Of a stretch of DNA of 64,000 nt, positions 1,643-53,592 are shown piece by piece. The notes below the pieces were generated by a model that searched no databases, was not told where the DNA came from, and saw only the letters and a list, made by a program, of their open reading frames with translations. This DNA is from Orobanche coerulescens (taxonomy: Eukaryota > Streptophyta > Magnoliopsida > Lamiales > Orobanchaceae): NCBI GenBank assembly GCA_033398695.1, contig CM065805.1:73066762-73130761 (forward strand), read 5' to 3'. Each line of letters opens with the position of its first letter. Within the stretch, counting starts at the first letter, position 1. The position numbers and the translations under genes are program-made.

Positions 1643-2055
1643 TAGCGCACGCTACGCACACCTTGTAGCGCACGCTAATTTAGTGAGGGTAGCGCCGTTA
1701 TCCATTATAATTAGCGCACGCTACTAATGTATTGAGGCGGACAGTCCGGTAGCTCTTTGGGTGGAAAAAATTCTAGCGTCGCTAGGTGTGACTAATAGCG
1801 TACGCTAGATTTTGGTGGTAGCGCACGCTACGTTACTAGAGTAACGTGGGCTAAAGAGAGAAGGGCTGGGGACGGTAGGTTACGGGTGACCGCGACTGCA
1901 GTAGCGCACGCTATTAGAAATAATTAGCGCACGCTAATTGAAGTCACTAGCGCACGCTATGGGCGGGTGTTAGCGTGCGCTAACGGAGTGGCAGACTCTT
2001 TGGATTGCACTGGTGAGTCCGATAGCGCGCTATTCTTAATGGCTAGCGCACGCTA
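1643..2055 (+). repeat. Phased palindrome array, TAGCGCACGCTA core, three tetrads and a pair
   Basis: Twelve-base near-palindromes begin at 1643, 1666, 1690 and 1712; 1774, 1796, 1819 and 1842; 1902, 1924, 1948 and 1971; then 2023 and 2044. Steps within a group are 21-24 bp, and gaps between groups are 52-62 bp. The TATA box follows 24 bp after the last motif start. The motif at 1971 is in the opposite polarity (TG centre), and the one at 1842 is strongly decayed. Confidence 0.9.
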
Positions 2056-3410: not shown

Positions 3411-3578
3411 TAACGTACGTTACACACATACGTAACGTACGTTACGTCTGCACGTTAGCGCACGTAAGCTACAAGGATTAGTGCACGCTAAGCATGCATT
3501 GGACAGTTCTTCTCAGTTTAGACGACTGCCTTACCTGAGGGTATAACGTACGTAATGCATAGAGCTTAACGTACGTTA
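3411..3578 (-). repeat. Palindrome tetrad and pair, ACGTACGT and TAGCGCACGCTA cores mixed
   Basis: Motifs begin at 3411, 3433, 3456 and 3479, and then at 3544 and 3567. Steps are 22-23 bp, with a gap of 65 bp. The first two are TAACGTACGTTA and the next two are TAGCGCACGTAA and TAGTGCACGCTA, so one tetrad mixes two cores. Confidence 0.85.
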
Positions 3579-4199: not shown

Positions 4200-4579
4200 T
4201 TACGTACGTTAGCCTTAGCCATTTACGTACGTAATCGACTTAGCGCACGCTACCCTTCGATCTTAGCGTACGCTATCGTTCACTGATAGCTTACTGTCTC
4301 GTTCTGTACTAGCTTACGTACGTTACTCCCTATGCATTACGTACGTAAGCTACACACATTAGCGTACGCTAGTTACAAACCTTAGCATACGTTAACACCC
4401 GTTGACCCTAAAACTGTCCAGGTTCATCCGCGGGAATCTTTCCGAGCCCCACCACCAGCCGTCTATGTGCTAGCCAGCATGTTCAATAATTGACCTCCTT
4501 ACGTACGCTACGTCTAGCTCGTAGCGTACGCTATTTCCGGTTCGTAACGTACGTTACGCTTACCTGTTAGCGTGCGTTA
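4200..4579 (-). repeat. Phased palindrome array of three tetrads in G2
   Basis: Motif starts are 4200, 4223, 4241 and 4264; 4314, 4337, 4360 and 4383; and 4499, 4522, 4545 and 4568. Eight of the nine steps within groups are 23 bp; the exception is 18 bp (4223 to 4241). Cores alternate between TTACGTACGTAA, TAGCGTACGCTA and TAGCGCACGCTA. The minus-strand TATA-like run lies just left of 4200. Confidence 0.88.
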
Positions 4580-10008: not shown

Positions 10009-10223
10009 TGTAATACCCGGTTGTAATTCAGTAATTATCATTCAGTATTTATCATTCAGTAATTTCACTCATTAATGATCATTTGTCACTCATATTCAAT
10101 CTTGGTATTCACCGTTCAGAGTAATTGTATCGTGTATCAATCGTCGTTCATCACTAATCTAATTCGAGTTCCGTGCCGTGTTTATCATCATTGTCATTTT
10201 CATTGTGGGTTGTGCGTGAGGAG

Positions 10224-10792
10224 TAGCGCACGCTACGTACTCTTTCTAGCACGCGCTAATTGAGTACAGGTAGCGCACGCTACCACTCAGCATTAGCGCA
10301 CGCTAATGTTACCCTGGTTGCAGTCCAGAAGGTACTACACTGTAGGTGAGTTATAAGTAGTGCACGCTACGAGTGGTAAGTAGCGCGCGCTAGTGGGTTG
10401 TAGTAATGCACGCTAATAATTGCTATAGTGCGCGCTAAGGACGGATCAGGTTGAGTCCAGTGGCTACTGGACTGCACTGGATTAATTCATAGCGCACGCT
10501 ATGAGTTGTTTTTAGCGTACGCAATCGATATTATAGCGCACGCTAAATATTGGTTGTAGCGCACGCTACCGAGTCGGTCGAGAGGGACAGGACGGTTTAC
10601 GGATTCCGGATCTTTGGGCATCAAATCATTCGTTAGCGCACGCTAACCATGGGTATTAATGCACGCTAATGGTATGGTTGTAGCGCATGCTACAAAAGGT
10701 ACGTAGCGCACGCTACCGTGTTCGGACAGTGGGTACTGGACTACCCAAAACACCCGTTAGCGCACGCTAAGAGCTGGGGCTAGCGCGCGCTA
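10224..10792 (+). repeat. Phased palindrome array, four tetrads and a pair
   Basis: Starts are 10224, 10247, 10271 and 10294; 10358, 10381, 10404 and 10426; 10490, 10513, 10534 and 10557; 10634, 10657, 10681 and 10704; then 10758 and 10781. Steps are 21-24 bp, mostly 23. Gaps between groups are 64, 64, 77 and 54 bp. The core is TAGCGCACGCTA with variable centre bases. In 11 of 18 copies the bases just outside the core are complementary to each other, extending the dyad. Confidence 0.94.
10455..10472 (+). repeat. Spacer palindrome GTCCAGTRGCTACTGGAC
   Basis: An 18-bp near-palindrome sits in the gap between the second and third tetrads. Related copies sit in the gaps of other arrays: 39094-39111 (perfect), 47570-47587 and 1744-1761 (decayed). 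Its repeated placement between tetrads suggests a second binding or structural site. Confidence 0.75.
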
Positions 10793-10804
10793 AACTGGGA
10801 TTGC

Positions 10805-10812
10805 TATAAATA
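10805..10812 (+). promoter_or_regulatory. TATA box of the G4 5' LTR
   Basis: TATAAATA begins 24 bp after the last palindrome start and is followed by GGACAGTTC, as in the 3' LTR and nearly as in G1. It is the likely promoter for the genomic RNA. Confidence 0.85.
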
Positions 10813-12454
10813 GGACAGTTCAGCCCTTACTCCGTCATTTATCATTTCTCTTCGTTTCTTCGGCGGTTTCGGGCGATTCCGGGCGATTTGGAGAGTGTTC
10901 TTCGAGGAGTAATCATCAATCATCATCTTCAAGCTTATCTTTTGGATTAATCATCATTTCAACATCCTCATCACATCAAATCTAAGGTAATAATCTCTTG
11001 GATCTAGAATTTCGGATTTTTGGGTTTTTCCTTCCGATTTCTTCATGTAAGCTTGGATTATCATTGGAATATGTTAGATATGGATTATCTACCTTGGAAA
11101 AATATATTCCTACGGATTTAATGGCTATTTTCGGAATTATTTCAAGAACCCTTGGAGTTGACTTCGGTTAATTGGGGATTTTCCGATTGATGTTGTTGTA
11201 ATCTTGAATTGTGGATTCCTATTGAATTATTGATATCATTGAAGTGTTTTGATAGTTCGAAATACTAATTTTGGTGTTAGTTTCGATGTATTCGGGAATG
11301 TATATTTTCGTAGTGGTGTGGTTGGTTATGTATTCGTTAGAATGCCCATATGAGTTTGATTATCGTTGTATCGACCTTTGGATTAGTCGTGTTTTGTTGC
11401 TCGATACGTGTATTAAACGGTTGTTGGTAATTATTGTTATTCAAGGTTGTTCGAGCGACCGGTATCTCGATTAGGACGTTGTTCGTGGAAGGACATTGTC
11501 ATCGGTATTGTGCAAGTTGATTCTTACTCGGTTAAAAGGATATTCATTCCTTTTGTTGTTGATCATTCATAATCATATCTCATTCATCATTGCATTAATC
11601 ATATTGAGACTTGTAATTGTCGAATAATCACTTCATTAGCGAGGAACGGCGGTTCCAATCATTTCATTGAAACTATCAATCACTTCATTATCACTTTCAT
11701 ATCGGTGAGTCATTCTTGACTTTGTCAGATTATTATTATTCATTGATATTCATTATGGTCATTCTCGTTCATATGACCTTAAGGTTCATATTGCGTGGCG
11801 GGTGCGGATGTGTGGAATTTTTAGTCGGGCACATGATGGCCATGTATTGGGAGTGATACATTGGGTGTGCACACGGTAACGATTACCTCAGTGAGACTAA
11901 TTAGGTACAGGGCGGGTGTGTCCGGTCATCCGTCTTGTACACTTGCACGAGAACACTACGGGCGTACTATGATACTCCTCTTGACGTAATTCATAACTAA
12001 GGATATTTCATAACCCGGATATATCATGATTGTGTAATTTCAACCCTTGAGGATTGTTGTTACGTATGGCGACCGTTGGGGATTTTATTTTAGTCACGAC
12101 AAGGCAAAGGCACGGGAAGAGCATGTTGACGGCGAGAGTCAGTGATACTAGTAGGGGCCCGGTCATTCCGTTTGTTTGATCATTTGATCATTTCCTTCAT
12201 TTGTATTTTCCATTGCAAATTCCGTTTGAGATGTTTAATTATTCGGGATGGTGTATTTTATCTCCATATAAAATATACTAGTATTCGGTTTGTCTGGTGT
12301 GTTGTACTTAAACTCCTCATCGGAGTACTTGGTAATATAATGTGGTTCGGTACTACAATTATATTATTTAATTCATCATTTTCATTTGCACAGTGGGTCC
12401 CGATCGGGGATTCACGGCCTTTGTAATATCCGCCTAGTTTGTGGTGTTACGAGT

Positions 12455-12911: not shown

Positions 12912-14146
12912 ATGGAGAGGGCAAGAAGAGGACGTGGAGGACGAGGCCGTGGAGCGGGCCGAATCCCGAGAGCTCGTGTGAATACACGTGCAAATGCGAG
13001 AAATAATGCTAATTCATCGAGCAGCGACGCTGCCCCTCATTCACCTGGACGCGATCATTCACTAACGGGGAGTCGTGCAGGACACGGCTCGATCGAGTAG
13101 GTGTCCGGGTTGACCCACTCGCTTTTATGCAGGGCATGATGGCCCAAATGACCCAGATGGCAAAGCTGATGGAGACGATGCATAACTCCATCAATCAAAA
13201 TCAACAGGCTCCTCCGCCGCCACCTCAGAGGCAAGAGAGGAATGTGAGCAATATCATCGGCGACATCTATCGCCAGAGGCCACCTACTTTTGAGGGCTCG
13301 TCTGAGCCGACGGATATTATTCATTGGCTCGAGCATTTCGAGAAGTTGTTTGCTATGGTAGAGTGTCCCGAAGGACACAAAGTTTCTGTTGCGGCTTACT
13401 ACCTGGGCAAGAGCGCACATTCTTGGTGGTTGTCGTTGAAGCCCACCGAAGGATCATGTACTTGGGATCAGTTCAAAACTTTCATGATGGAGAGGTATTA
13501 TACGGCCCCGCTCAGAGAGGCCAAACTGTCAGAATTACTCACCCCCGACCCCTCAGTAGACGAGGATGTTCTCGCCATTGCCGAGAAATTTCAGGAACTT
13601 CTTCCGTTCGCCTCATCTATCATTCATTCCGAGGCAGATAAGATTAAGTATTTCAGCAAGAGGCTGAAACCCCATATGAGACTACAGTTGCTTAATCATA
13701 ATTGCACCACGTTGGCTGAATTCATTGAGAAAGCTCTTACCTATGAGCTTACTGCTAAGGAGATTGCTAAGCAGCAACCTTCATCTGCTAGCAAGAAGTC
13801 CAAGAACCGTAATCAGTCTGACGGCAGTCAGGCCACTTTCAAGAAACCTCGTGCGGGCTCTGTTTTTTCTGAGCGACCTCCTGTGACGTCTAAACCCGCA
13901 GAATCTCAGTCACGAGCGGCCAGTTCGGCCATCACCTATTATAACTGTGGGGATCTTGGTCATGTCAGCACCAAGTGTCCGAGACAGTCTGTCACGTGTC
14001 ATAACTGTGGAATTGTTGGGCATAAGGCCCATTTTTGCCGTAGGGACTCCAAACCTGCTCAGACGTCATCTCATGCCCCTAAGCAGTCAGCCTTTCAGAA
14101 TCAGGCCACTCAATCAGCGTCGTTTAAAACGACAGGAGCGACTTAA
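12912..14146 (+). pseudogene. Gypsy gag of G4 (frameshifted)
   Basis: Translation should start at ATG 12912 with an Arg/Gly-rich tail (MERARRGRGGRGRG), then shift frame near 13085-13127. The main frame (13127-14146) holds the capsid core, with WLEHFEKLF near 13327 and SAHSWWLSL near 13410, and two zinc knuckles near 13935-14035. The first knuckle has Tyr where the first Cys is expected (YYNCGDLGH); the second (CHNCGIVGHKAHFC) is intact. Gag forms the virus-like particle and binds the RNA. A stop ends the frame before the protease. Confidence 0.88.
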
Positions 14147-14583
14147 GGTGGAGCCTATAGCCGTGAGACAGGAGCGTCGGTGCGGGACTAGCAAGCCCAG
14201 GATCTATGAGATGAAGAAGACCGATGATCCGAGAGGCCGAATGATCTCGGTACACTCGATATTCTATCTCAACCTATGTGTACCTGTTTGATCTTTGGTG
14301 CATCGCATTCATTCATTTCCGAGTCATGTTTGAGTAGACTACGTGCAGGTAGTGCTACTAGTTGTGAGCCTAATGTCATTGGTCTACGATGGTAGACGAA
14401 TTATCGGGAATCGTGAGATTGAGCTGTCAGGTTGACTTCATGGTCGTGTATGGCGGCGGACCTAATCGTGGTAGATTTGCCGAGAGGCAGCGTCATCTTG
14501 GGTATTGATTGGATGGATCGTCATGATGCCATCATTAGTGTCCGTAAGCGTATGATCACTATCATTTGAGACGATGGGGTTGA
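14147..14583 (+). pseudogene. Degraded protease of G4
   Basis: In three different frames one can read parts of an aspartic protease: the junction motif PRIYEMKK, a GASHSF segment in which the catalytic D-T-G has become I-F-G, and the downstream [13 protein letters not shown] motif near 14497. Compared with the equivalent open region of G6 (37110-37480), a block near 14405-14460 is scrambled by several short indels. It cannot encode an active enzyme as written. Confidence 0.78.
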
Positions 14584-15111
14584 ATGTGTGTTTCAGGAGG
14601 TAATCCCTACATTACAGTAATCATTAATTTTATGAAAGCAGTGAGATTACTCAATCAGGGGTGTGTTGGTTATTGGTGCTTTATGACCAAAACTGAGAAA
14701 TCATCAGTAATGTTGACGGATATTCCGGTAGTGAAGGAATATGCCGATGTTTTTCCAGACGAGTTGCCTGGTTTGCCTCCACAGAGAGACGTGGAATTCA
14801 CAATTGAGTTGGAGCCCGGTACGTCCCCGATTTCGAAGGCACCGTACCGGATGGCCCCGACCGAAATGCGGGAATTGAAGAATCAACTTGAGGAGTTATT
14901 CGAGAAAGGTTATATCCGACCGAGTGCATCCCCGTGGGGAGCACCAGTGTTGTTTTTCAAGAAAAAGGATGGTTCATTTCGCTTATGTATTGATTATCGG
15001 GAGTTGAACAGGGTGACGATCAAGAATAAGTATCCTTTACCCCGTATCGATGATCTTTTGGATCAACTTCAGGGAGCTTCAGTATTTTCCAAGATCGACT
15101 TAAGATCTTGA
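14584..15111 (+). pseudogene. Reverse transcriptase of G4, first part
   Basis: The frame includes the pre-RT motif [12 protein letters not shown], the SPWGAPVLF block near 14925 and CIDYRELN near 14990. It ends at a TGA inside the motif normally read as LRSGYHQ, which looks like a single GGA-to-TGA change; the same frame continues at once with YHQLRIRES. Confidence 0.88.
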
Positions 15112-15804
15112 TATCATCAATTGCGGATTCGAGAGTCGGATGTCGCGAGGACAGCGTTTCGTACGCGCTATGGTCATTATGAGTTTGTATTTATGCCGTT
15201 CAGACTAACTAACGCACCTGCGGTATTCATGGAGTTAATGAATCGGGTTTTCATCGACTTTTTGGATCAGTTTGTTGTTGTCTTCATCGATGACATTTTG
15301 ATTTATTCTCGTGACCGAGAGGAACACGAGTTTCACCTTCATCAAGTGCTCGACGTGTTGAGACGAGAACAACTTTATGGGAAGTTTTCCAAATGTGAGT
15401 TCTGGATGTCCGAAGTGATGTTTCTCGGACACGTAATTTCATCAGACGGAGTTCGTGTCGATCCTCAGAAAACGGAGGCTATTCGAGATTGGCTACCTCC
15501 GAAGAATGTTAAGGAAATCCGAAGTTTCCTCGGATTAGCGGGTTATTATCGGCGATTTGTGGAGGGATTTTCTAGAATCGCTCAACCCTTGACGAGCCTT
15601 TTACATAAGGATAGGAAATACACGTGGTCCGACGTGTGTCAATGGAGTTTTGAGGAACTCAAGAGGCGGTTAATGTCAGCACCTGTACTTTCCTTGCCGC
15701 AGGGGACGGAAGGATTTGTGGTTTATAGTGATGCATCCGGACAGGGTCTCATATGTGTGCTCATGCAGAATGGAAGGTTATTGCCTATGCTTCGCGGCAA
15801 TTGA
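15112..15804 (+). pseudogene. Reverse transcriptase and RNase H start of G4
   Basis: Reading resumes after the internal stop and covers the RT palm, with the catalytic FIDD motif ([11 protein letters not shown] near 15280) and the GHVIS and GLAGYYRRF motifs. The RNase H begins with the first catalytic Asp in YSDASGQG near 15727. The frame then shifts near 15760, where the sequence should continue [17 protein letters not shown]. Confidence 0.9.
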
Positions 15805-17624
15805 GACCTTACGAGGTTAATTATCCAACACACGACCTGGAGCTAGCAGCCGTGGTGTTCGCTTTGAAGATTTGGCGTCATTATCTTTATGGCGTTACCT
15901 GTCAGATATTCACCGATCATAAGAGTTTAAAGTATATATTTACTCAGAAGGAGTTAGATATGCGACAGAGACGGTGGTTGGAATTAATCAAAGATTATGA
16001 TATCGAGATCCTTTACCACCCGGGCAAGGCGAACGTTGTCGCCGACGCCTTGAGTCGTAAGTCCGTTCAGGAGCAGATGCTTGCCCGTTTAACAGTTCAG
16101 AAGGAACTTCAGCAGGAATTCCTTAGACCCGAGATCGAGGTATGGCTTCAGCGAGTTCAGGGACAACTTGGTATGTTGGAGATCTCATCGTCACTTGAGG
16201 AGGCAATCAGAGAGAATCAGGGTTCAGACCCATCATTGTTACGCATCCGTGAGGATGTGGTTCAGGGGAAAGCCCCTGGATTTGTGGTCCACGAGGATGG
16301 ACTTTTGAGGTTTAAGAATCGGTTGTGCGTACCGGAGAATGACGAGTTGAAAAAGTCGATTTTGAAAGAAGCTCATGCTACCTCTTATTCTGTTCATCTG
16401 GGGTCTAGCAAGATGTACAAGGACTTGAAACAAAATTACTGGTGGAGTAATATGAAACGAGAAGTCGCAGAATTTGTTTCGAGATGCTTAACCTGTCAAC
16501 AAGTTAAGATTGAACATCAGCGGCCGGCGGGTATGCTGAAACCTCTTCCTATTCCCGAATGGAAATGGGAAGACATTTCTATGGATTTCATCACGAGTTT
16601 GCCGACGAGTCATCGTGGCATGAATACGATCTGGGTGATCGTGGACCGCTTAACCAAATCAGCTCATTTCCTTGAGATCAAGGATACGTGGGGTCCCGAG
16701 AGACTTGCCCAGCTATTCATCAAAGAGATAGTGAGACTACACGATACTCCTAAAAGTATCGTTTCCGATCGTGACGGACGGTTTGTGTCTCATTTTTGGA
16801 AATCAGTTCATCGTGCTATGGGAACTCAGCTTAATCTCAGTACCGCCTTTCATCCTCAGTCCGACGGGCAATCAGAGAGGACTATTCAAACATTAGAGGA
16901 CATGTTGAGGGCATGCGTCCTCGATTGGAAAGACGATTGGGAAGCCCAACTACCATTGATTGAGTTCACGTATAATAATAGTTGGCATGCTTCGATTAAG
17001 ATGGCACCTTACGAGGCCTTGTACGGTCGTCGTTGTCGATCTCCTTTGTGTTGGGATGACCTATCAGAATCAATCGGCACCGAGCCCAATATGCTTATAG
17101 CCGCCCGTGAGAAGGTAACTTTGATCAGGAGTCGTTTGTTGACTGCTCAGAGTCGACAGAAATCATATGCAGATATCCGTCGTCGACCTTTAGAGTTCGA
17201 ATCAGGTGACCATGTTTTGGTCAAGGTATCCCCGAGTCGTGGTATCTTCCGTTTCGGGAATAGGGGGAAGTTGAGTCCGAGATTCATTGGACCGTTTGAG
17301 ATTTTGGATCGAGTAGGCGAGTTACCTTATCGACTGGCTTTACCTCCGGCGTTGAGCCGAATTAATAATGTGTTTCATGTCTCTCAGTTGCGGAAGTATG
17401 TTGCCGACCCGAGTCACATACTTCAGTTCGATGAAATCGAGATCGCCGACGATCATTCATATGAGGAGCGTCCTATGCGAGTTTTAGAGCGGCGAATCAA
17501 ACAGTTGAGGAATAAGACGATTCCTTTGGTTAAGATTCAGTGGTCTAGGCACGGAGTCGAAGAGGCTACTTGGGAAACCGAGGATAGTATGCGGGAGAGT
17601 TATCCCGAGTTGTTTGACCCTTAG
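15753..17624 (+). CDS. RNase H end, integrase and chromodomain of G4
   Basis: A 623-codon open frame. Residues about 10-110 are RNase H, with ELAAVVFAL and TDHKSLKY motifs and the ending [10 protein letters not shown]. The integrase follows, with its zinc site (HATSYSVH and CLTC), DDE residues in SMDFIT, SDRDGRF and GQSERT, and the [16 protein letters not shown] motif. A chromodomain ends the protein ([16 protein letters not shown], then EEATWE). It is close to the G1 protein and better preserved at the second catalytic Asp. This is the longest intact pol segment in the window. Confidence 0.93.
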
Positions 17625-17658: not shown

Positions 17659-17873
17659 TGTAATACCCAGTTGTAATTCAGTAATTATCATTCAGTATTT
17701 ATCATTCAGTAATTTCACTCATTAATGATCATTTGTCACTCATATTCAATCTTGGTATTCACCGTTCAGAGTAATTGTATCGTGTATCAATCGTCGTTCA
17801 TCACTAATCTAATTGGAGTTCCGTGCCGTGTTTATCATCATTATCAATTTCATTGTGGGCTATGCGTGAGAAG

Positions 17874-18439
17874 TAGCACACGCTACGTACTCTTTCTAGC
17901 GCGCGCTAATTGAGTACAGGTAGCGCACGCTACCACTCAGCATTAGTGCACGCTAATGTTACCCTGGTTGCAGTCTAGAAGGTACTGGACTGCAGGTGAG
18001 TTATAAGTAGCGCACACTACGAGTGGTAAGTAGAGCGCGCTAGTGGGTTGTAGTAGCGCACGCTAATAATTGCTGTAGCGCGCGCTAAGGATGGATCAGG
18101 TTGAGTCCAGTGGCTCTTTGGATCGCATCGATTAATTCATAGCGCACGCTATGAGTTGTTTTTAGCGTACGCAATCGATATTATAGCGCACGCTAAATAT
18201 TGGCTGTAGCGCACGCTACCGAGGTCATATCAGAGGACAGACGGTTTCTGGATTCCAGTACTGGGCATCAAATCATTCGTTAGCGCACGCTAACCATGGG
18301 TATTAACACACGCTAATGGTATGGTTGTAGCGCACGCTACAAAAGGTACGTAGCGCACGCTACCGTGTTCGGACAGTGGGTACTGGACTACCCAAAACAC
18401 CAGTTAGCGCACGCTAAGAGCTGGGGCTAGCGCGCGCTA
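17874..18439 (+). repeat. Phased palindrome array in the G4 3' LTR
   Basis: This is the sister of the array at 10224-10792, with the same grouping. The first tetrad starts at 17874, 17897, 17921 and 17944. Individual cores have CpG-to-TpG or CpA changes relative to the 5' copy (for example TAGCACACGCTA and TAGTGCACGCTA), but the 23-bp step is unchanged. Confidence 0.9.
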
Positions 18440-18451
18440 AACTGGGATTGC

Positions 18452-18459
18452 TATAAATA
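18452..18459 (+). promoter_or_regulatory. TATA box of the G4 3' LTR
   Basis: TATAAATA starts 24 bp after the last palindrome start, exactly as in the 5' LTR. Confidence 0.8.
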
Positions 18460-20108
18460 GGACAGTTCAGCCCTTACTCCGTCATTTATCATTTCTCTTC
18501 GTTTCTTCGGCGGTTTCGGGCGATTCCGGGCTATTTGGAGAGTGTTCTTCGAGTAATCATCAATCATCATCTTCAAGCTTATCTTTTGGATTAATCATCA
18601 TTTCAACATCCTCATCACATCAAATCTAAGGTAATAATCTCTTGGATCTAGAATTTCGGATTTTTGGGTTTTTCCTTCCGATTTCTTCGTGTAAGCTTGG
18701 ATTATCATTGGAATATGTTAGATATGGATTATCTACCTTGGACAAATATATTCCTACGGATTTAATGGCTATTTTCGGAATTATTTCAAGAACCCTTGGA
18801 GTTGACTTCGGTTAATTGGGGATTTTCCGATTGATGTTGTTGTAATCTTGAATTGTGGATTCCTATTGGATTATTGATATCATTGAAGTGTTTTGATAGT
18901 TCGAAATACTCATTTTGGTGTTAGTTTCGATGTATTCGGGATTGGATATTTTCGTAGTGGTGTGGTTGGTTACGTATTCGTTAGAATGCCCATATGAGTT
19001 TGATTATCGTTGTATCGACCTTTGGATTAGTCGTGTTTTGTTGCACGATACGTGTATTAAACGGTTGTTGGTAATTATTGTTATTCAAGGTTGTTCGAGC
19101 GACCGGTATCTCGATTAGGACGTTGTTCGTGGAAGGACATTGTCATCGGTATTGTGTAAGTTGATTCTTACTCGGTTAAAAGGATATTCATTCCTTTTGT
19201 TGTTGATCATTCATAATCATAACTCATTCATCATTGCATTAATCATATTGAGACTTGTAATTGTCGAATAATCACTTCATTAGCGAGGAACGGCGGTTCC
19301 AATCATTTCATTGAAACTATCAATCACTTCATTATCACTTTCATATCGGTGAGTCATTCTTGACTTTGTCAGATTATTATTATTCATTGATATTCATTAT
19401 GGTCATTCTCGTTCATATAACCTTCTGGGTTCATATTGCGTGGCCGGGTGCGGATGTGTGGAATTTTTAGTCGGGCACATGATGGCCATGTATTGGGAGT
19501 GATACATTGGACTGTGCACACGATAACGATTACCTCCGTGAGACTAATTAGGTACAAGGACGGGTGTGTCCGGTCATCTGTCTTGTACACTTGCACATAA
19601 CACTACGGGCGTACTATGATACTCCTCTTCAGCGTAATTCATAACTAAGGATATTTCATAACTTCAGATATATCATGATTGTGTAATTTCAACCCTTGAG
19701 GATTGTTGTTACGTATGGCCCGGCCCGTTAGGGATTTTGTTTTCAGTCACGGCAAGGCAAAGGCACGGGAAGAGCATGTTGACGCGAGAGTCCGATGATA
19801 CTAGTAGGGGGCCCCAGTCATTCCGTTTGTTTCAGTCATTTCAGTCATTTCCTTCATTTGTATTTTCCGCTGCAAATTCCGTTTGAGATGTTTAATTGTT
19901 CAGGATGGTGTATTTTATCTCCATATAAAATATACTAGTATTCGGTTTGTCCTGGTGTGTTGTACTTAAACTCCTCATCGGAGTACTTGGTAATATAATG
20001 TGGTTCGGTACTACAATTATATTATTTAATTCATCATTTTCATTTGCCTGGTGGGTCCCAGTCGGGGATTCACGACACTGTAATATCCGCCTAGTTTGGG
20101 GTGTTACA

Positions 20109-20113
20109 GTATG
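20109..20113 (+). other. Target site duplication GTATG (right, G4)
   Basis: Exact partner of 10004-10008. Confidence 0.93.
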
Positions 20114-22500: not shown

Positions 22501-22678
22501 TTACGTCCGTAAGGCATAGTTGGTTACGGCCGCAAGGCTGCCGAGTTACGGCCGTAATGCCTTGCCAGTTACGGTCGTAACACACGTTCGTTTTTCGGAC
22601 AGTGAGGCCTAGGGACCCGATTACGGCCGTAAGAACCTGACGAGTACGGCCGTAAGGACCTGCCGGTTATGGACGTAA
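22501..22678 (+). repeat. Phased palindrome array, TTACGGCCGTAA core
   Basis: Starts are 22501, 22524, 22546 and 22569, then 22621, 22644 and 22667. Steps are 22-23 bp and the gap is 52 bp. The core is entirely different from that of G4 and G1, while the arrangement is the same. The TATA box follows 22 bp after the last start. Confidence 0.9.
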
Positions 22679-32694: not shown

Positions 32695-33021
32695 TAACGT
32701 ACGTTAACCTGTCTTCATAACGTACACTATGTATGTCGCCTTACGTACGTAACATCAATACGTTAACGTACGTAATGCGGGAGATCCTCCAGCAGTCCGC
32801 CTTTCGGCGGGTGGGGCCGAGCGGGGGTAGGTGGTCGGGAGTCGATCGCGACAGCCAAGTCAATGGCTATTACGTACGTAATAGCTATATAGTTACGTAC
32901 GTAACGAATTGCGTGTTTTGAGGCAGAAAGATCTGATGAAATTGGTTACATACGTAATGATCATAAGATTACGTACGTAAGGGCTATAACGTATGTTAAC
33001 CACTTTTGTTAACGTACGTAA
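32695..33021 (+). repeat. Phased palindrome array, ACGTACGT core
   Basis: Starts are 32695, 32718, 32741 and 32764; then 32870 and 32893; then 32946, 32969, 32987 and 33010. Steps are 23 bp except one of 18. Cores are TAACGTACGTTA, TTACGTACGTAA and hybrids. The 106-bp gap holds a G-rich stretch instead of further motifs, possibly a lost pair. The TATA box is 26 bp after the last start. Confidence 0.9.
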
Positions 33022-38054: not shown

Positions 38055-38668
38055 CCAAGGATCAAAAGGTGAGTTGTAATGAAAAGTCTTCCATCCTTTA
38101 TTCAACTCCCACCCACATGATACAATTCATGCCATATGATGTCTAACCCCACAAAGTCATGATCATGCATTAATAAATGGAAGAAAAGACAATGGGAAGG
38201 TAGGTGGAAGCAAAAGGGGCGGCTATCATGAAAAATGGACGAGTTCGGTTCGTTTCGGACTCCCGTGAGTCCAAACAGATAAACTCCGATTTCGTTCCGA
38301 TGTATTTGTGTCGATTAATTAATTCAATAAATTAATCACATTAAATACATAATAACATAATTAATTTCTCCAAGAAATAATTATATTTATGAATTAAATT
38401 AATTATATAGTAATTTATTTAATTCATTAGGCCGTAAATCAATTTATCTAATAAATCAATTTAGACATCTAATGTCCCAAATTAGATATCCAATATCTAA
38501 TATTCATAAAGAGAGAAGAAGCTTGATTCATTCCATCGTCAATCCTATTGCGCGACTCGGTAGGTCCGTCTCAGTTAGCAATAGGAGGAACCAAAGAGTA
38601 GTAGCACCACCTAGCCAGCCTGGCGGCCTACACTGTACCCCAGCTAAGAACGAATGATGGGATCATTT
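38055..38668 (-). repeat. C5: copia LTR on the minus strand, left part
   Basis: AT-rich sequence matching the middle of the C1 LTR in reverse: CCAATATCTAATATTCATAAAGAGAG near 38488 mirrors the C1 TATA region, and CACCTAGCCAGCCTGGCGGCC near 38608 mirrors the GCGGCCCGCTAGGCTGGCTAAG block of the 44444 LTR. The extreme LTR end (TGTTGGGATTCC) is missing at the G6 border. The SIRE-like solo LTR interrupts it at 38669. Confidence 0.82.
38664..38668 (+). other. Target site duplication CATTT (left)
   Basis: Matches CATTT at 40226-40230 on the far side of the solo LTR, and the copia LTR sequence is continuous when the insert is removed. Confidence 0.85.
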
Positions 38669-38763
38669 TGTTGACTCAAAATGTATTTTGATGATTATTC
38701 CATTCAAAAAATTTAATTAGATCAATCTCAGATCGATAGTATTTTGAAGGAGCTAAATAATGT

Positions 38764-39565
38764 TAGCGCACGCTACTCATATTATAGTAGCGCACGCTAT
38801 CGAGATATACATGTACAGCCCAGACAGTCAGCTGCAGCCAAGTGAAGTCACCTGATGGATAGCGCACGCAAGTCAGTCAATATTAGCACACGCTAAGTAA
38901 CTAAAGTCAGCGCACGCTATACAATCCATATTAACGCACGCTATCACATTATTACAGAAGACAGTGAGGTTTGGAAGGAAATTGGAAATGAATTTTGCGC
39001 ACGCAACATACATCAACTTACGTACGCTAAAACAAGGACATAGCGCACGTTACTACTCAGCTCTTTCGCACGCTATCAATATCACGGTCAGTAGTCCAGT
39101 AGCTACTGGACTCAATATGTCAAGGATTTTACGTACGCTACACAGGGCAACGTACGTTACTGAAAGAAAAATTTAGCGCACGCTAAGGTATAGGCATTAG
39201 CGCACGCTAAAAAGGAGTCAGCATATTACCGTTTGATTTTCTACCGTTGGAAGTCAAGAGTCAATGAAGATCCGGAAACATCTGGAAAAGTTGGATTTAA
39301 TTAATGCTAGCGCACGCTATGCATACTTGCTAGCGCACGCTAATCTTAAATTTAGCCGTTGGATAAAGAGTCGTTGGAGAGACAAACGGACATTTTCAAA
39401 GTCAAGATTGAAGACTTGTTGACCAGACGTTAACGCACGCTACCGATACATGACTAGCGCACGCTAGCCATATTATTTTACCGTTGCAACAGTCTTTGTG
39501 ACCGTTCAGAGAAGCCAAGTCAAAGATCGATAGCGCACGCTAGAGGACATTATTAGCGCACGCTA
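38764..39565 (+). repeat. Phased palindrome array in the SIRE-like solo LTR
   Basis: Starts are 38764 and 38788; 38860, 38884, 38908 and 38932; 38995, 39018, 39041 and 39064; 39129, about 39148, 39174 and 39198; 39308 and 39331; 39431 and 39455; 39531 and 39554. Steps are 23-24 bp with one irregular pair. The core is mostly TAGCGCACGCTA, with TTACGTACGCTA variants. This LTR is unrelated to the gypsy LTRs, yet it shares both core and spacing. Confidence 0.92.
39094..39111 (+). repeat. Perfect spacer palindrome GTCCAGTAGCTACTGGAC
   Basis: A perfect 18-bp palindrome in the gap between two tetrads, equivalent to 10455-10472 in G4. Confidence 0.88.
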
Positions 39566-39603
39566 ATAATACGTTCTTCAGCATTTGAAGGATGGCCCTC
39601 ACC

Positions 39604-39611
39604 TATAAATA
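39604..39611 (+). promoter_or_regulatory. TATA box of the SIRE-like LTR
   Basis: TATAAATA lies 50 bp after the last palindrome start, about two steps, and is followed by ACCCAAAGG and repeated CAAGCAT phrases (39647-39690). Confidence 0.78.
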
Positions 39612-40225
39612 CCCAAAGGACTTGGGTATCAATCACACAACTTCAAGCATTCAAGCATACAAGCATACAAGCAATCAAAGCATACTTGAGCTCAGTTTTA
39701 TATCTTTTATTGCATTTCAAGTTGTGAGAAAAGAAAGATACAAGAGTGATTCTCATTGTAATATCTACTATTCTTTGTATTCTTTCATTTGATTGTAAGT
39801 GTTGCATCACTTACACTTGAGCGTAAAAGAAACGAATCAAGAGTCACTAATCCGGTGTTATTAGGATCTTTGATCCGGCATTGTTAGGATTAAACTCCCA
39901 CATTCGTATAGTGAGGATTATCTAGTTCCTATAGAACACTAGATAAACAAACATTTATATTAAGAGAGAGGTTGAGCTTGGACCGATAGAAGACAAGCGA
40001 TTGTAACGGTTGTGAACTCGGACCGATAGAAGACGAGTCAAGATTGTGGTTGTTCTTGAGCCAATAGAAAAAGAATGTCGGAGAGAGGACGTAGGCAAGT
40101 TGCCGAACCTCTATAAATCTTTGAGTCTTTAAATTCCGCACTATCTTTCATTTATTCACAAGAAATTTCGGTATTCCGCATTACCACTATTCAACCCCCC
40201 TTCTAGTGGTAAATTTATCTCTTCA

Positions 40226-40230
40226 CATTT
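40226..40230 (+). other. Target site duplication CATTT (right)
   Basis: Partner of 38664-38668. Confidence 0.85.
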
Positions 40231-41097
40231 AAGAACCATTCTGTCGTGAATACCAGTATACGTATAAACCCTTCTTTCAAATGTCCTGATCAAGTTATAG
40301 GGTCACGGTCAGTCAAATCCTATCTGTACTTGACGCTATGCACATGTTAATGCAAATCGATATCATTGAGCTCTCGTCTATCCAATACAACTAGCTCCAA
40401 TGCTTTGACCAAAGACTTATGATCTCATCTGCCAATAACCGCAAAGGACATATAACACGCTCACTAACGTGGGAAAGAATTCTATCTTAGTATTCAGTAG
40501 GACCTGCTACTTGCCCGTCAAGATGCAAGTCGAGGTTGACCCCCACCTCCCGATTTATAGGGTCGAACTACTATAATGAAAATCTTGACATCACAAGCAC
40601 ATCCCTACTAAATCCTCAAGACGAAGGTTCACGAATACCTATCACAACCTTTCGATTCTGTCATAGACTGTCCCGGAGTGAAATCTGTGTGACGAATCGA
40701 GGGTGAGTCGGTTCGAGTATACTAATCCAATTGGCATACCTATAACGTGTGCTCCCACTAACCATTAGTGCTCGACATGCACTCTCCATGTCAAAGAACA
40801 CGTCATACAAGTCTTCACATAAACTTAACGCCCTGTCAAGTTTCATCGACTTGCGAACGATTAAGTATTTGAGCTATAAACCTTTCCAGTGCCGACCCCC
40901 TTATCTAATAAGGAGTGGAACGTTTTGCTCTCAAATACACAGACTAGTTTCTATATGTATATTTACGAGTTAGGAATGCCAGTAACTACCAGTAAATAAA
41001 GAAACATCCATTGCCTTATATTAATGATTTACATAATTACAAGTACATGCCCTCACTCAACATTCTCTGAGTGGCATTCAAGGGCATACTCCTAACA
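40231..41097 (-). repeat. C5: copia LTR on the minus strand, right part
   Basis: It continues the LTR interrupted at 38668 (AAGAACCATTCTGTCGTGAATACC matches the reverse of ATGGTTCTGGAATG with its flanks in the 44444 LTR). It ends GGGCATACTCCTAACA at 41097, the reverse of the LTR start TGTTAGGAGTATGCCC. No internal region adjoins it; copia pol of C6 in the opposite orientation begins at once. Confidence 0.85.
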
Positions 41098-45417: not shown

Positions 45418-46254
45418 TGTAACACCCCCAATCCTCTCAGGGATATTACACGTCGTAGACTCTTTCCTCAAGGATCTACCAGGCTGGTAAAAAAAATCAA
45501 ACATCTAAACATCGCCTTTAAGACTGAAATGACCCAGTAGACCGATTTGATCTTTTAGTTTAGACATACAATTCGATCTCAAACATGCCCACGCAGGGGT
45601 CAAAATAAAACACTCCCGTACAACGGAAAAATACTGCAGCAGAAATAAACTACAACTAGGCCAACACAACATCGAGTGGGTCCTCATGTGATTGTATCGA
45701 TCATCTTTCATCATTCTTCATGCCAACCCTATGTTATGCTCCCCAAAACCTGAATGCAAAACAGACATCCACCCTCCGATTACTCGGGGGTTAGCAAAAT
45801 CCCACTATTTTGCTAGTGCAAGTACAAAGTACAAATATGAGTCATACAATTCATATTCCAAGAATAATAATAATCACGAATCCCCAAATATTCAAATATA
45901 GCAAAAGATACATCCCGAGGCAAAGGGTTTGAGTAAAACTTCCAAATTCGACAGATCACTAATCAAGAGAACAATTTATGAAATACTTTTAGAAATGAAA
46001 GCCCTTGGGAGTTTTAACAGAAACCATTTAGGATTAATGAATCTTTCTCTTTTCAAAGAAACCGAAAGGGATCACACCCCAAAGATTTACTTTCTCCAAT
46101 AAACACTAACAACAGTTCACAGGGTTCAAAGCCCACGTAACGTGTCCTCGACGGATACAAAGTCAACAGAATATAACCACACAAGATACAAAATCTTGGT
46201 AACACGTCCAAGGTACTCGACCTGGCAAAACACATCCAAAATCAAATCCATACC

Positions 46255-46522
46255 ACCGTGACCACATGCCACATCATCTCACGGTTGGATCAATCACTTG
46301 TTGTCTCCTGACCACATGATCACAAGCCACGTGTCACCGTAGGTTTTCTTATACCACCGTGATCACTTGCCACATCATCTCACGGTTGGATCAATCACTT
46401 GTTGTCTCCTGACCACATGATCGCAAGCCATGTGTCACCGTAGGTATCCTTAGCTCTCACGGTTGGACCAATCACTTTTTGCATCCTGACCACATGATCA
46501 CAAGCCATGTGTCACCGTAGAC
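46255..46522 (-). repeat. Tandem repeat, period about 101 bp, 2.7 copies
   Basis: Units begin ACCGTGAYCACWTGCCACAT at 46255 and 46356, with a third, shortened unit from about 46457. The G7 5' LTR has the same structure at about 52023-52290, so the repeat predates insertion. Confidence 0.85.
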
Positions 46523-47413
46523 CCCGCCCATATCCACACATTCACACACATAACACAGTGCGCCAAGGATATCCAAACAATTCACCCAAAGTCAACAAAC
46601 ACATAGCACCGAAATGGGATAATATATGTATATATGTATATTATCAAATCACAACACCAACATCGAACATATCCATAGGATTCACTCAATCATTTACAAA
46701 CACAACATTCACAAAATACACACGGTTTTGAAAGAGAGCCTTTAACGAGGCTAAGCTGAATCTTTTGAAAGTTCATTCCAAACAACCAAACAAGCACACC
46801 AAAATGATCACCGATCATCGTATCCAAAAAACAAGAAATGTATGAACAAGGTACTTGCCTCGAATAATCACAAACGAGGAGAATCGACCGAAGTTGGACC
46901 ACACGAACCGACTATGAACCCGCCGACTCCGCCGAATGCCAACCCGCGACAATAAACTACGAACGACAATAACAACATTGAATATGAATTCCATAGCACG
47001 ACCTAAAGCCGCTGAATTCAAGGAACAAATGACTAAAGTTCAAGGGTTTCCCCCAAAACAGCCAAGAACACTAATCGACCCGACAAAAACATGAAAACAG
47101 AATTCCAAACCAAAATATGGAAATACAATCCATAGGATATGTTTAACAACATCATTTAACAGCAATCGATTCATCAAAATCGGATAGAAAACGAAATCAA
47201 GAACAAAACTCCCAAAAAGGTCAACTCTAGGGAATCAAGAAAAGTACCTCGATTCGACGAAGGACAATGGATTAGATGATGTTATAATCACTTAGGATAC
47301 TCCAAAACACCTTTGGATGGAAAAAATCGGTCCCGATCACGAACCCTAGTCCTCCACGACTCACACCCGCGGAGAGGAGAGGAAAACAAGTGGAAATGGT
47401 GAAAAACGAATGT

Positions 47414-47435
47414 TGTCCAGTATATATACTGGACA
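47414..47435 (-). promoter_or_regulatory. TATA box centred in a perfect 22-bp palindrome
   Basis: The arms TGTCCAGTATA and their complement form a perfect palindrome around TATATA. The sister LTR (about 53211-53232) has one mismatch. The palindrome array starts immediately beside it. Confidence 0.82.
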
Positions 47436-47438
47436 GCT

Positions 47439-47685
47439 TAGCGTGCGCTAATCTTCACTGATTAGCGTGCGCTATTCAAAGCATCAAAAACAAACGTTCT
47501 GCCAAAACGTACAGTTAGCGTGCGCTAACCACAGTAGTTTAGCGTGCGCTAACGAGACCTACAGACCGAGTCCAGTAGCTTCTAGACTGCCTCGAACTAC
47601 CAGTTAGCGTGCGCTACCAGAACCGTAGCGTGCGCTAACTATATCACCTTAGCGCGTGCTATCCATCTGGATGTAGCGTGCGCTA
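47439..47685 (-). repeat. Phased palindrome array in the G7 3' LTR
   Basis: Starts are 47439 and 47463; 47516 and 47540; 47605, 47626, 47650 and 47674. Steps are 21-24 bp and gaps 53 and 65 bp. The plus strand reads TAGCGTGCGCTA, so the promoter strand reads TAGCGCACGCTA, the same polarity as in G4. The spacer palindrome GTCCAGTAGCTTCTAGAC is at 47570-47587. Confidence 0.9.
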
Positions 47686-48163
47686 TCGACTCAGAATGAC
47701 AGCAATAGTACTCTCAAAAATGGGTACGACGACGGATTTCTCTGACCAAATCTTCAAGTTCAAGATACGCACAGAAAGCTCTAGAATATGATCATACTAA
47801 GAGCTTGAGCTCTAATCAAACTCATACCCACAACTCTGGTAAATACAAAATGGCCTAAAACGCCCGAAATCACGATACGTGATCGAATAACCAAATCGAA
47901 GTTCACAACACATCTAACAAAGTTAAACGGACTTACGGGAAACTGAAACAACAGTTTCGAATGAGATTCGCAAGAATCAAACTCAAGTGCGGAAAAGTCG
48001 CTAAGAAGTACGAAACTCAACAAAATGACACTGAAACGAACTCGGATGTCAAAAAGTGCAAAATTAATCATTCTCAGAATGACGAAATGGTCACAAGCGA
48101 GCCGTCAAAATGGACTCCTGCCAAAAAAAAAATTTACCGAAAATCAAAATTGCGGATATTACA

Positions 48164-48181
48164 TACTACCCTCCTTAAAAG
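48164..48181 (-). promoter_or_regulatory. Polypurine tract of G7
   Basis: The minus strand reads CTTTTAAGGAGGGTAGTA directly before the LTR start, preceded by TTTCGGGACGAAACTTC, as in G1 and G4. Confidence 0.85.
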
Positions 48182-48524
48182 AAGTTTCGTCCCGAAACTT
48201 AAAAATAAGTAGGGAGGAGCAATATCCCACAAGGACTACTCAACGAGATACACAAGAACCACGTAACCTACACCCATCAGCGAAACATTACAAGAAACAC
48301 AAAGAAACATATGACGTGAAATCACGCTCGACAACAACCATCACAATGTCACAAGCAGAAACATAATAAAACCAACCAATGCCAAGTATCACCAAATAGA
48401 TAGCATGATCAAGTCAAGTATACGAACCATCACAAAATCAAAGGTATCTATTGCAAGTAAACAGGCACAGTCGAAGAATAGAAAATAAACACACAACGAT
48501 CCGCGAGGGTAACCACGAAGAACT

Positions 48525-51188: not shown

Positions 51189-53592
51189 TGTAACACCCCC
51201 AATCCTCTCAGGGATATTTCATGTCGTAGACCCTTTCCTCAAGGATCTACCAGGCTGGTAACAAAATAAAACATCTAAACATCGCCTTTAAGGCTGAAAT
51301 AACCCAGTAGACCGATTTGGTCTTTCAGTTTATACATACAATTCGATCTCAAACATGCCCACGCGGGGGTCAAAATAAAACACTCCCGTGCAACGGGAAA
51401 ATACTGCAGTGGAAGTAAACTATAACTAGGCCAACACAACATTGAATGGGTCCTCATGTGATAAGTATCGATCATCTTTCATCATCCTTTATACCCTGTG
51501 TTATGCTCCCCAAAACCTGAATGCAAAACAGACATCCACCCCCCGAATACTCGGGGGTTAGCAAAATTCCACTATTTTGCTAGTGCAAGTACAAAGTGCA
51601 AATACGAGTCATACAATTCATATTCCAAGAATAATAATAATCAGGAATCCCCAAATATTCAAACATAGTGAAAGATACAACCCAAGGCAAAGGGATTGAG
51701 TACAACTTTCCAAATTCGACCGATCACCAATCAAGAGAACAATTTATAAAATACTTTTATAAATGAAAGCCCTAGGGAGTTTTAATAGAAACAATTTAGG
51801 ATTAAAAAATCCTTCTCTTTTCAAAGAAACCGAAAGGGGTCACAGCCCAAAGATTTGCTTTCTCAGATAAAAACTAACAACAATTCACAGGGTTCAAAGC
51901 CCACGTCATGTGTCCTCGACGGACATAAAATCATCAGAATATAACCACCGAAGATACAAAATCTTGGTAACACGTCCAAGGTACTCGACCTGGCAAAACA
52001 CATCCAAAATCATATACATACGACCGTGATCACATGCCACGTTATCTCATGGTTGGATCAATCACTTGTTGCCTCCCTACCACATGATCACAAGCCATGT
52101 GTCACCATAGGTTTTCTTATACCACCGTGATCACTTGCCACATCATCTCACGGTTGGATCAATCACTTGTTGTCTCCTGACCACATGATCGCCAGCCATG
52201 TGTCACCGTCGGTATCCTTAGGCTCTCACGGTTGGATCAGTCACTTGTTGCATCCTGACCACATGATCACAATCCATGTGTCACCGTAGATGCTGCCCAT
52301 ATCCACACATTCACACATATAACACAGTACGTCAAGGATATCCAAACACTTCACCCAAAGGCAACAAACACATAGCACGACACAAACGTCGAGTCACAAC
52401 GCACCGAAATGGGATAACATATGTATATATGTATATTATCAAATCACAACACCAACATCGAACATATCCACAGGATTCACTCAATCATTCACAAACACAA
52501 CATTCACAAAATACACACGGTTTTGAAAGAGATCTTTTAATGAGGCTAAACCGAATCTTTTGAAAGTTCATTCCAAACAACCAAACAAATACACCAAAAC
52601 GATCACCGATCATCATATCCACAAAACAAGAAATGTATGAACAAGGTACTTGCCTTAAATAATCACAAACGCGGATAATTGACCGAAGTGGGATGGCACA
52701 AACCGACTATGAACCTTCCGACTCCGCCGAATGCCAACCCGCAACAATAAACTACGAACGACAATAACAACAATGAAAATGGCTTCCATAGCACGACCTA
52801 AAGCCGCTGAATTCAAGGAACAAACGACGAAAGTTCAAGGGTTTCCCCCAAAACGGCCAAGAACACTAATCGACCCGACAAAAACATGAAAACAAAATTC
52901 CAAACCGAAATATGGATATATAATCCATAGAATATGTTTAACAACATCATTTAACAGCAATCGATTCATCAAAATTGGATGGAAAATGAAATCAAGAAAA
53001 AAATTCCCCAAAAGGTCAACTCTAGGGAATCAAGAAAAATACCTCGACTCGACGAAGAACAAGGGATTAGATGATGTTATAATCACCTAGGATACTCCAA
53101 AACACCTTTAGATGTAACAAAATCGGTCCCGATCATGAAGCCTAGTCGCCCACGACTCACACCCGCAGAGAGAGGAAATGAAGTGAAAATGGTGAAAAAT
53201 GACTATTGTCCTGTATATATACTGGACAGCTTTACGCTAATCTTCCCTGATTAGCATGCACTATCGAAGCATAAAAACAAACGTTCTGCCAAAATGTACA
53301 GTTTGCGTGCACTAACCTCCAGACCCAGTCCAGGCTTCTGGACTGCCTCAAACTACCAGTTAGTGTGCGCTACCACAACCGTAGCGTACGCTAACTACAT
53401 CACCTTAGCGCGCGCTAACCACCTGGATGTAGCGTGCGCTATCGACTCAGAATGACAGCAATAGTACTCTCAAAAATGGGTATGGCGACGGATTTCTCCG
53501 ACCGAATCTTCAAGTTCAAGATACGCGCGGAAAGCTCCAGAATATGATCATACTAAGATCTTGAGCTCTAATCAAACTCATACACAACCATG
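51189..53592 (-). repeat. 5' LTR of G7, left part
   Basis: It closely matches 45418-47820. Its palindrome array (about 53230-53445) is more decayed than its sister, with several cores deleted in part. The Athila element A1 interrupts it at CCATG; it resumes at 62720. Confidence 0.9.
53588..53592 (+). other. Target site duplication CCATG (left, A1)
   Basis: Exact copy at 62715-62719 on the far side of A1. Confidence 0.92.

Follow-up and report, generated by a model that had tools for sequence, protein, structure and literature searches.

Phased arrays of palindromic sites leading to the TATA box in LTR retrotransposons of Orobanche coerulescens

The window, as the whole stretch of DNA analyzed is called here, is a 64-kb piece (C5:73066762-73130761) of the 3.65-Gb assembly of Orobanche coerulescens, which has 19 large contigs (C1-C19) of 138-237 Mb. 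It contains an LTR retrotransposon, the focal element, with a 5' LTR at 10009..12454 on the plus strand that is 95.3% identical over 2465 columns to its 3' LTR (17659-20110) in a self-BLAST. Pieces of gag and pol in several frames lie at 13127..17624 on the plus strand, with matches to Ty3_capsid, CCHC, RVT_1, RNase H, integrase H2C2 and SH3_Tf2-1, and the three open reading frames of at least 200 aa within the element are all gag or pol. As Ty3_capsid, RVT_1, RNase H and SH3_Tf2-1 were found rather than a Ty1/copia pol, the focal element is not a Sirevirus. A chromodomain is matched only below the Pfam cut-off (18.6 bits against 25.1), and a match of 20.8 bits, also below the cut-off, was obtained in the window at 36-1427 and in another locus, L024. 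In view of the domains present between the LTRs, a Ty3/gypsy, chromovirus-like element is the natural reading, and the gypsy gag and pol domains agree with the Ty3/gypsy setting given to this LTR in an initial annotation of the sequence, the chromodomain being found only below the cut-off. Each focal LTR also has, close within its 5' end, a tandem repeat of 14 bp, ATTCAGTAATTATC (10026-10083 and 17676-17733).

Two dyads are used to describe the control region of this LTR. The first, P1, is a 12-bp palindrome, TWRCG-NN-CGYWA, with the half-sites CGYWA; it was scanned for as TWRCGNNCGYWA, and its main flavor is the exact word TAGCGCACGCTA. The second dyad, P2, is CAGTCCAG-N6-CTGGACTG. On the plus strand of the focal 5' LTR, P1 copies form a first tetrad at 10224..10305 (copies at 10224, 10247, 10271 and 10294), a second at 10358..10437 (10358, 10381, 10404 and 10426), a third at 10490..10568 (10490, 10513, 10534 and 10557), a fourth at 10634..10715 (10634, 10657, 10681 and 10704) and a terminal pair at 10758..10792 (10758 and 10781). 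P2 dyads occupy the plus strand between the first and second tetrads (10321..10342, score 14/16) and between the second and third (10453..10474, score 15/16), with centers in both cases 32 bp from the P1 centers on both sides. No well-placed P2 was found in the 77-bp gap after the third tetrad of this 5' LTR copy, and a weak one follows the fourth (10722..10743, plus strand), with its center 23 bp from the left and 31 bp from the right P1 and a score of 11/16, a score that is reached by 2/82 shuffled gaps. The TATA box, TATAAATA, lies at 10805..10812 on the plus strand, and the same 18-copy array is present in the 3' LTR at 17874..18439, also on the plus strand.

The phased array noticed in the initial annotation is confirmed. 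All 18 near-palindromes, grouped as four tetrads and a pair, were recovered at the positions reported there. The measured steps are 23, 24 and 23 bp in the first tetrad, 23, 23 and 22 in the second, 23, 21 and 23 in the third, 23, 24 and 23 in the fourth and 23 in the pair, with 64, 64, 77 and 54 bp from group to group, matching the 21-24 bp and 54-77 bp given before. The distance of 24 bp to the TATA box also holds, when counted from the start of the last copy; from its end, the distance is 12 bp. Between the two focal LTRs (10224-10792 against 17874-18439), divergence amounts to 9.7% in the array spacers, 3.5% in the remaining LTR and 5.6% in the motifs. The spacer excess is local, and another LTR pair in the window is without it (8.5%, 7.3% and 10%).

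The array has a direction. At the center of the 18 focal copies, CA is found 13 times, CG four times, TA once and TG not at all. In the sampled arrays elsewhere, 197 flank-non-redundant sites (of 334) show CA in 99, TA in 60, CG in 19, TG in 14 and other dinucleotides in 5, in line with the earlier statement that an asymmetric CA center gives the array its direction. Orientation was set from the side of the TATA box; arrays without a TATA box were mostly kept in the fetched orientation for this count, the window array at 3411 was set to minus without one, and that of locus L007 was reversed for the grouping by downstream similarity but not for the center and flank-pairing counts. Pairing of the flanks, which had been taken as a sign of selection on dyad symmetry, stands for the focal array, where 11/18 copies have a first flanking base that is complementary to its mirror base. 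It generalizes poorly: among the same 197 sites, the first flanking bases pair in 65 cases against 50 expected (permutation p=0.0065) and no significant excess is found from the second base on, so symmetry is weak beyond the 12-bp core. Within the core, the half-sites of the arrays covary at positions 3 and 10 (233/292 observed against 218 expected, a value reached by 0/2000 permutations) and at positions 2 and 11 (p=0.0055), as would be expected if the same protein reads each half.

P1 is highly abundant in this genome. The exact word TAGCGCACGCTA occurs 1,017,744 times (510,633 + 507,111), or about 280 times per Mb, against 56 occurrences (23 + 33) of the reversed word used as a control. Exact TWRCGNNCGYWA sites number 90 in the window, compared with 0-2 in any of 5 shuffled versions. 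In 18 arbitrary 10-kb loci, picked by hand at round coordinates, there are 131, against 1-3 when shuffled, the shuffles preserving two-base blocks; arrays of at least four sites, with one mismatch allowed, are present in 8/18 of these loci. The array statistics also include loci L001-L008 and L028, which were taken because they contain P1, with L003, L004 and L006 dropped as duplicates. Close pairs of the exact word, with steps of 12-42 bp, are found at 242,417 places genome-wide (121,839 + 120,578; control 0), and 131,744 pairs (66,333 + 65,411) have a step of exactly 23. A scan of viral contigs returned 0 P1 pairs at this step.

The step is kept, and the sequence between the sites is largely free. 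Among 100 P1 pairs listed (the genome-wide listings give the first 100 matches, which are all on contig C1), the step is 23 in 47 and 24 in 44, or 91/100 together. The 70 distinct spacers of these pairs fall into 52 clusters at 70% identity, and across these unrelated clusters the step is 23 in 22, 24 in 24 and another value in six (46/52 at 23-24). Random spacing in other families, which would have counted against the initial annotation, is therefore not what is seen. In the pairs listed, 19/23 spacer positions carry at most 0.15 bit, and the highest values are those of the base directly following the motif (0.26 and 0.56) and of one position near the end (0.43). The comparison of motif and spacer conservation proposed earlier gave the same picture: across 11 homologous array pairs, identity ranges over 82-96% for sites, 38-73% for spacers and 57-92% for the downstream LTR, and the sites surpass the downstream LTR in each of the 11, although site identities are partly inflated because sites were picked by their match to the pattern. 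In a twelfth pair (22501 against 47439), in which the flavors differ, sites are 49% and spacers 41% identical. A mutational cold spot or protection of the CpGs was considered for this conservation and rejected. After insertion, CpG loss by transition in motifs and elsewhere was 8/38 and 13/91 in one window LTR pair and 5/14 and 34/90 in a second, counts that omit 22 non-transition changes (1 in motifs, 21 elsewhere). Motif CpGs thus decay about like other CpGs, and the conservation of P1 between families is put down to selection on active lineages and not to a cold spot.

Group size is also restricted. In 25 sampled arrays, with four second or partial array copies omitted, 103 groups were counted, of which 45 have four copies, 38 two, 13 one, 6 three and 1 five. 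Pairs or tetrads account for 83/103 groups and at most four copies are present in 102/103, which makes the pair the apparent unit and four copies a nearly constant limit, with the 13 singletons, six triples and one group of five as exceptions. A step of 23.5 bp corresponds to about 2.24 helical turns, and four steps return to roughly the same face of the helix; it is a speculation that this return explains the limit of four. Since a step of 23-24 bp does not amount to a whole number of helical turns, the sites of one group lie on different faces.

The position of the TATA box follows the same spacing. P1 is followed by TATAAATA within 30 bp at 6,389 + 6,400 places genome-wide (control 0). In 95/100 of the matches listed, the offset is 8-13 bp (11 in 49 and 12 in 33), as it is in 28/32 of their spacer clusters, and the TATA box occupies the slot of the next P1 site. 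In 29 fetched arrays, a TATA box was found within 150 bp in 23 and not found in 6; it lies 10-18 bp past the last site in 17 of these 23, both LTRs of two elements being counted. One family, the Sirevirus family described below, has its TATA box at 38 bp.

The second dyad is phased with the first. P2 scores of at least 12/16 are reached in 25/82 gaps and in 0/82 shuffled gaps, and scores of at least 11/16 in 44/82 gaps and in 2 of 82 shuffled gaps; since the P2 word was derived from the gaps that were first scored, only its position and the genome-wide count are independent. Genome-wide, P1 is followed by ACTGGACT within 9-39 bp at 37,375 places (19,652 + 17,723), with 0 for the control. Within the range searched (13-43 bp), the P1-P2 center distance in 100 matches listed is 22-23 bp in 40, 31-34 in 49, 36 in 2 and 43 in 9, and no distances of 24-30 or 37-42 occur; 8/9 of the matches at 43 have a P1-like copy in between. 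With duplicates and these inner-P1 rows removed, 26 spacer clusters remain among the matches listed, at 22-23 (9), 31-34 (15), 36 (1) and 43 (1). These offsets are about one helical turn apart, which suggests helical phasing. The gaps of 47-135 bp between groups look periodic as well, with a Rayleigh z of 11.8 at 10.5 bp and 13.8 at 11 bp for 72 gaps that are not independent. This broad peak has its maximum at 10.75-11 when all 72 gaps are taken and at 11.5 for the 56 gaps that do not exceed 90 bp, and a smaller peak is seen at 13. For exact pairs 43-73 bp apart, 22 listed gaps without an inner copy, chosen by eye, measure 51-54 (5), 63-65 (9), 70-73 (4), 59-61 (three) and 43 bp (one).

Arrays of this kind are carried by many LTRs. 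In the window, nine arrays are present besides the focal one, the partner LTR included, and some of these are of the TTACGTACGTAA or TTACGGCCGTAA types. A P1 array in a related LTR family lies at 1643..2055 (plus strand, TATA +12), and a P1-type array of 6 sites at 3411..3578 is listed without a strand, as no TATA box was found within 150 bp. A mixed TTACGTACGTAA/TAGCGTACGCTA array is found at 4200..4579 on the minus strand, with the TATA box at +12 on that strand, and a TTACGTACGTAA/TAACGTACGTTA array at 32695..33021 (plus strand, TATA +14); downstream of the latter, a gag open reading frame at 35947 shares 72% DNA identity with the focal gag over 523 columns. A TTACGGCCGTAA-type array of 7 sites (22501..22678, plus strand, TATA +10) and an 8-site P1 array (47439..47685, minus strand, TATA +10, in the LTR 45418-47827) have homologous downstream LTR parts, 76% identical over 202 columns, yet they contain different palindromes (TTACGGCCGTAA and TAGCGCACGCTA), and the flavor can therefore change as a set. 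The partner LTR of the second array, 51189-53583, carries a decayed array at 53252..53441 (minus strand). The LTRs of this element (45418-53583) are 2.4 kb long and 89.8% identical, and enclose only about 3.4 kb; the single open stretch of at least 150 aa in this interval gave no Pfam match, and the element may be non-autonomous. Downstream of the array, both its LTRs have a 101-bp tandem duplication (46250-46452 and 52018-52207). In addition, a perfect palindrome, GTGCCGCGGCAC, is present at 54663, 58246, 58383, 62395 and 62467, in or between a 97%-identical repeat pair (53593-54905 and 61385-62714), and may be the box of a further family.

Sorted by the similarity of their downstream parts, the 25 arrays form 12 groups. 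The largest has 10/25, with the focal element and nine more, among them L024, which has a gypsy pol. Eight is the safer number of groups, because four groups of a single array (L001, L002, L027 and window 3411) have no TATA box in register or no sure orientation. Related families are not independent samples.

P1 is also carried by a Ty1/copia element that spans the loci L014, L027 and L045. In L014, 22 P1 boxes precede the TATA box, and copia gag and pol then follow in L027; the domains of the element (Retrotran_gag_2, gag_pre-integrs, rve and RVT_2) are those of Ty1/copia. The window contains a 20-site P1 array of the same family (85% identity over 1478 columns) at 38764..39565 (plus strand, TATA +38), in an apparent solo LTR (~38668-40231). 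The element has three AGGGGGAG tracts, the last at L045:969, exactly 10 bp before the 3' LTR (match from 979). At the junction of 5' LTR and PBS, after the LTR end at L027:166, CA-GTTGG-TATCGGAGC is read where CA-ATTGG-TATCAGAGC has been published, with one change in the interval and one in the PBS. Near the LTR end there is a run of six C, which stops 25 bp short of it; by position, it was compared with the published 19-bp, C-rich integrase signal about 21 bp before the end. Judged by its copia domains, its AGGGGGAG tracts and its boxes upstream of the TATA box, the main features in the available text of PMC2829016, the element is a Sirevirus. Within it, at L027:4994-5260, a P1 tetrad (steps 24, 26 and 24), a further copy and TATATATA stand ahead of an open reading frame (L027:5266-6000) with a weak PF20167 match below the cut-off, and the tetrad with TATATATA is likely an internal promoter. 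P1 and P2 are both common to the Sirevirus and gypsy arrays. The Sirevirus is flanked on opposite sides by an open reading frame with a BED finger (L014:7395-8147) and one with a hAT dimerization domain (L045:2813-3946), apparently having landed within a hAT transposon. The BED-finger frame had been considered as a candidate for the protein that reads P1 and was rejected, as the two frames together look like one interrupted hAT transposon.

Repeated cis-acting boxes are also known, in few copies, from the U3 of the plant LTR element Tnt1, and we know of no tetrads there. The symmetry of Tnt1 box I is mentioned in PMC2829016. The same paper (Bousios et al. 2010) describes, in the text available, palindromic repeated motif (RM) boxes upstream of the TATA box in the LTRs of 13 Sireviruses, with eight to 32 copies in each element and a CGG-CCG core in 12/13 of the Sireviruses; they are called Sirevirus-specific and reported absent from other copia elements. 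The statement in the initial annotation that no element of this design was known to be described is thus not supported. Like the RM boxes in the available account (PMC2829016), the arrays described here consist of many copies of a short palindrome upstream of the TATA box, with family-specific flavors and divergent flanks, and the extra boxes described there before an env-like frame resemble the P1 copies before L027:5266-6000. In contrast to that account, Ty3/gypsy elements also carry the same word here; CG-NN-CG is the prevailing core, TAGCGCACGCTA being without CGG-CCG and the TTACGGCCGTAA flavor having it; and the arrays keep to a fixed step, group size and TATA offset and have a fixed second dyad, with no spacing rule given in the available text of PMC2829016. 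In maize Sireviruses, palindromes are clustered in the LTR control region as they are here, and they are treated as small-RNA hotspots or secondary structure, with no phasing reported in the text available (PMC5311732, PMC10760457). In the text examined from the literature within reach (mostly without subscription papers, and without preprints), gypsy occurrence, sharing between superfamilies and a strict syntax were not found; nor did searches return a palindromic motif with 23 bp and a TATA box or the spacing of repeated motifs in U3. P1 words searched as text strings matched, judging by titles, animal and viral work, perhaps as primers, and no palindromes appear in the available text of an LTR machine-learning paper (PMC11656987) and a sunflower LTR methylation paper (PMC12844716). 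Against this accessible literature, palindromic boxes in LTRs are known, and the gypsy occurrence, the word common to two superfamilies and the strict syntax would be new.

The P1 arrays are probably sites at which dimers of a promoter-proximal activator bind cooperatively, and they stand in register with the TATA box. The array would be the upstream promoter (U3 cis-region) of the retrotransposon. One protein dimer would bind each 12-bp P1 through its CGYWA half-sites, and dimers would load as interacting pairs or tetrads at the step of 23-24 bp. P2, between the groups, would bind another dimer at helically fixed offsets; with the last P1 one array step from the TATA box, TBP would stand in register with the array, and transcription would be activated towards R. 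We infer protein binding, dimers, cooperativity and activation from the fixed step, the free spacers, the even group sizes, the covarying half-sites, the phased P2 and the TATA register, which an assembly of activator dimers fits. The initial proposal of dyad sites that are phased, directional and lead to a TATA box is supported by the same evidence.

Other explanations were weighed against this one. The arrays could be a functionless 23-bp minisatellite made by slippage; repeats in LTRs often expand, and Tandem Repeats Finder reports short 23-bp arrays in the window. This is highly improbable and was rejected, as the spacers are unrelated across copies (52 clusters among the 70 distinct spacers of the pairs listed); in addition, groups stop at four copies in 102/103 cases, P2 stands at fixed offsets in the matches listed, and the grammar is common to families with unrelated downstream parts. 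The palindromes, which the genomic RNA carries in the U3 part of its 3' end, could instead form RNA or DNA hairpins that feed or recruit small-RNA processing, as has been put forward for those of maize Sireviruses, which are reported to be small-RNA hotspots (available text of PMC5311732 and PMC10760457). The 569-nt array does fold better than dinucleotide shuffles (z -6.5, reached by 0/100), but z falls to -1.7 (reached by 4/60) when the motifs are kept and the spacers shuffled, and the excess stability is mostly there because the motifs themselves are palindromic. Flank pairing is not significant past the first base, the favored CA center breaks perfect self-pairing, and folding predicts neither the TATA register nor the P2 offsets; hairpins as the function are thus quite unlikely, and small-RNA capture may be a side effect. 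The link to 23-24-nt small RNAs raised in the initial annotation is not indicated by the step, and a step of small-RNA length was rejected: close pairs of the TTACGGCCGTAA flavor (53,946 places genome-wide) have mostly a step of 22 among the matches listed, with 19-21, 23, 30 and 42 as well, and steps of 18-21 bp occur in the sampled arrays.

The arrays could also be the targets of an anti-silencing protein, encoded by the element or allied to it, comparable to the VANC proteins, which bind motif-dense non-coding repeats of VANDAL elements and strip methylation (PMC5735166, PMC10398659, as far as available). Dense short motifs in one orientation, in non-coding DNA and with flavors that vary by family, are common to both systems; here they lie in a control region, with a CpG in nearly every site, and the wholesale change from TTACGGCCGTAA at 22501 to TAGCGCACGCTA at 47439 recalls the VANC21 and VANC6 motifs (PMC5735166, text available). 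However, the VANC targets are tandem repeats in DNA transposons, for which the available text of PMC5735166 and PMC10398659 mentions no palindromes and gives no spacing rule. The fixed TATA register favors a promoter, the motif CpGs show no reduced decay after insertion, and all three focal frames of at least 200 aa are gag or pol, which makes such a target unlikely.

How the array came to be carried by two superfamilies is a separate matter, and any answer by exchange is compatible with the activator-dimer explanation. The U3 module may have moved between Sirevirus and chromovirus LTRs through template switching instead of arising by convergence, an origin that is possible but somewhat doubtful. 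Both superfamilies have P1 and P2, the L014 array is 80% identical to the focal array over 65 bp, and the 47439 array is 71-74% identical to arrays of the focal clade over 116-182 columns; these short matches consist largely of P1 and P2 themselves, though, and no long match between the Sirevirus and the focal clade is among the matches listed. More broadly, it is tentatively suggested that one grammar of P1 pairs and tetrads, P2 at helical offsets and a TATA slot, in flavors that belong to single families and change as a set, serves a large share of the LTR elements in this genome, Ty1/copia and Ty3/gypsy alike, and that it is read by one set of paralogous dimeric proteins, being exchanged and co-evolving with them.

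If this is true, about a million exact sites would be a huge sink for the reader protein. With an explicit word, TWRCGNNCGYWA, about a million natural sites and many spacing variants, a search for this protein and for its sensitivity to methylation is practical, and the control region is recognizable here by its geometry. To our knowledge, the triggers that activate the elements populating large plant genomes are mostly unknown. A word common to two superfamilies would mean that retrotransposons can share a cis-regulatory code, and such a shared code would mean that silencing or activation could hit many families at once.
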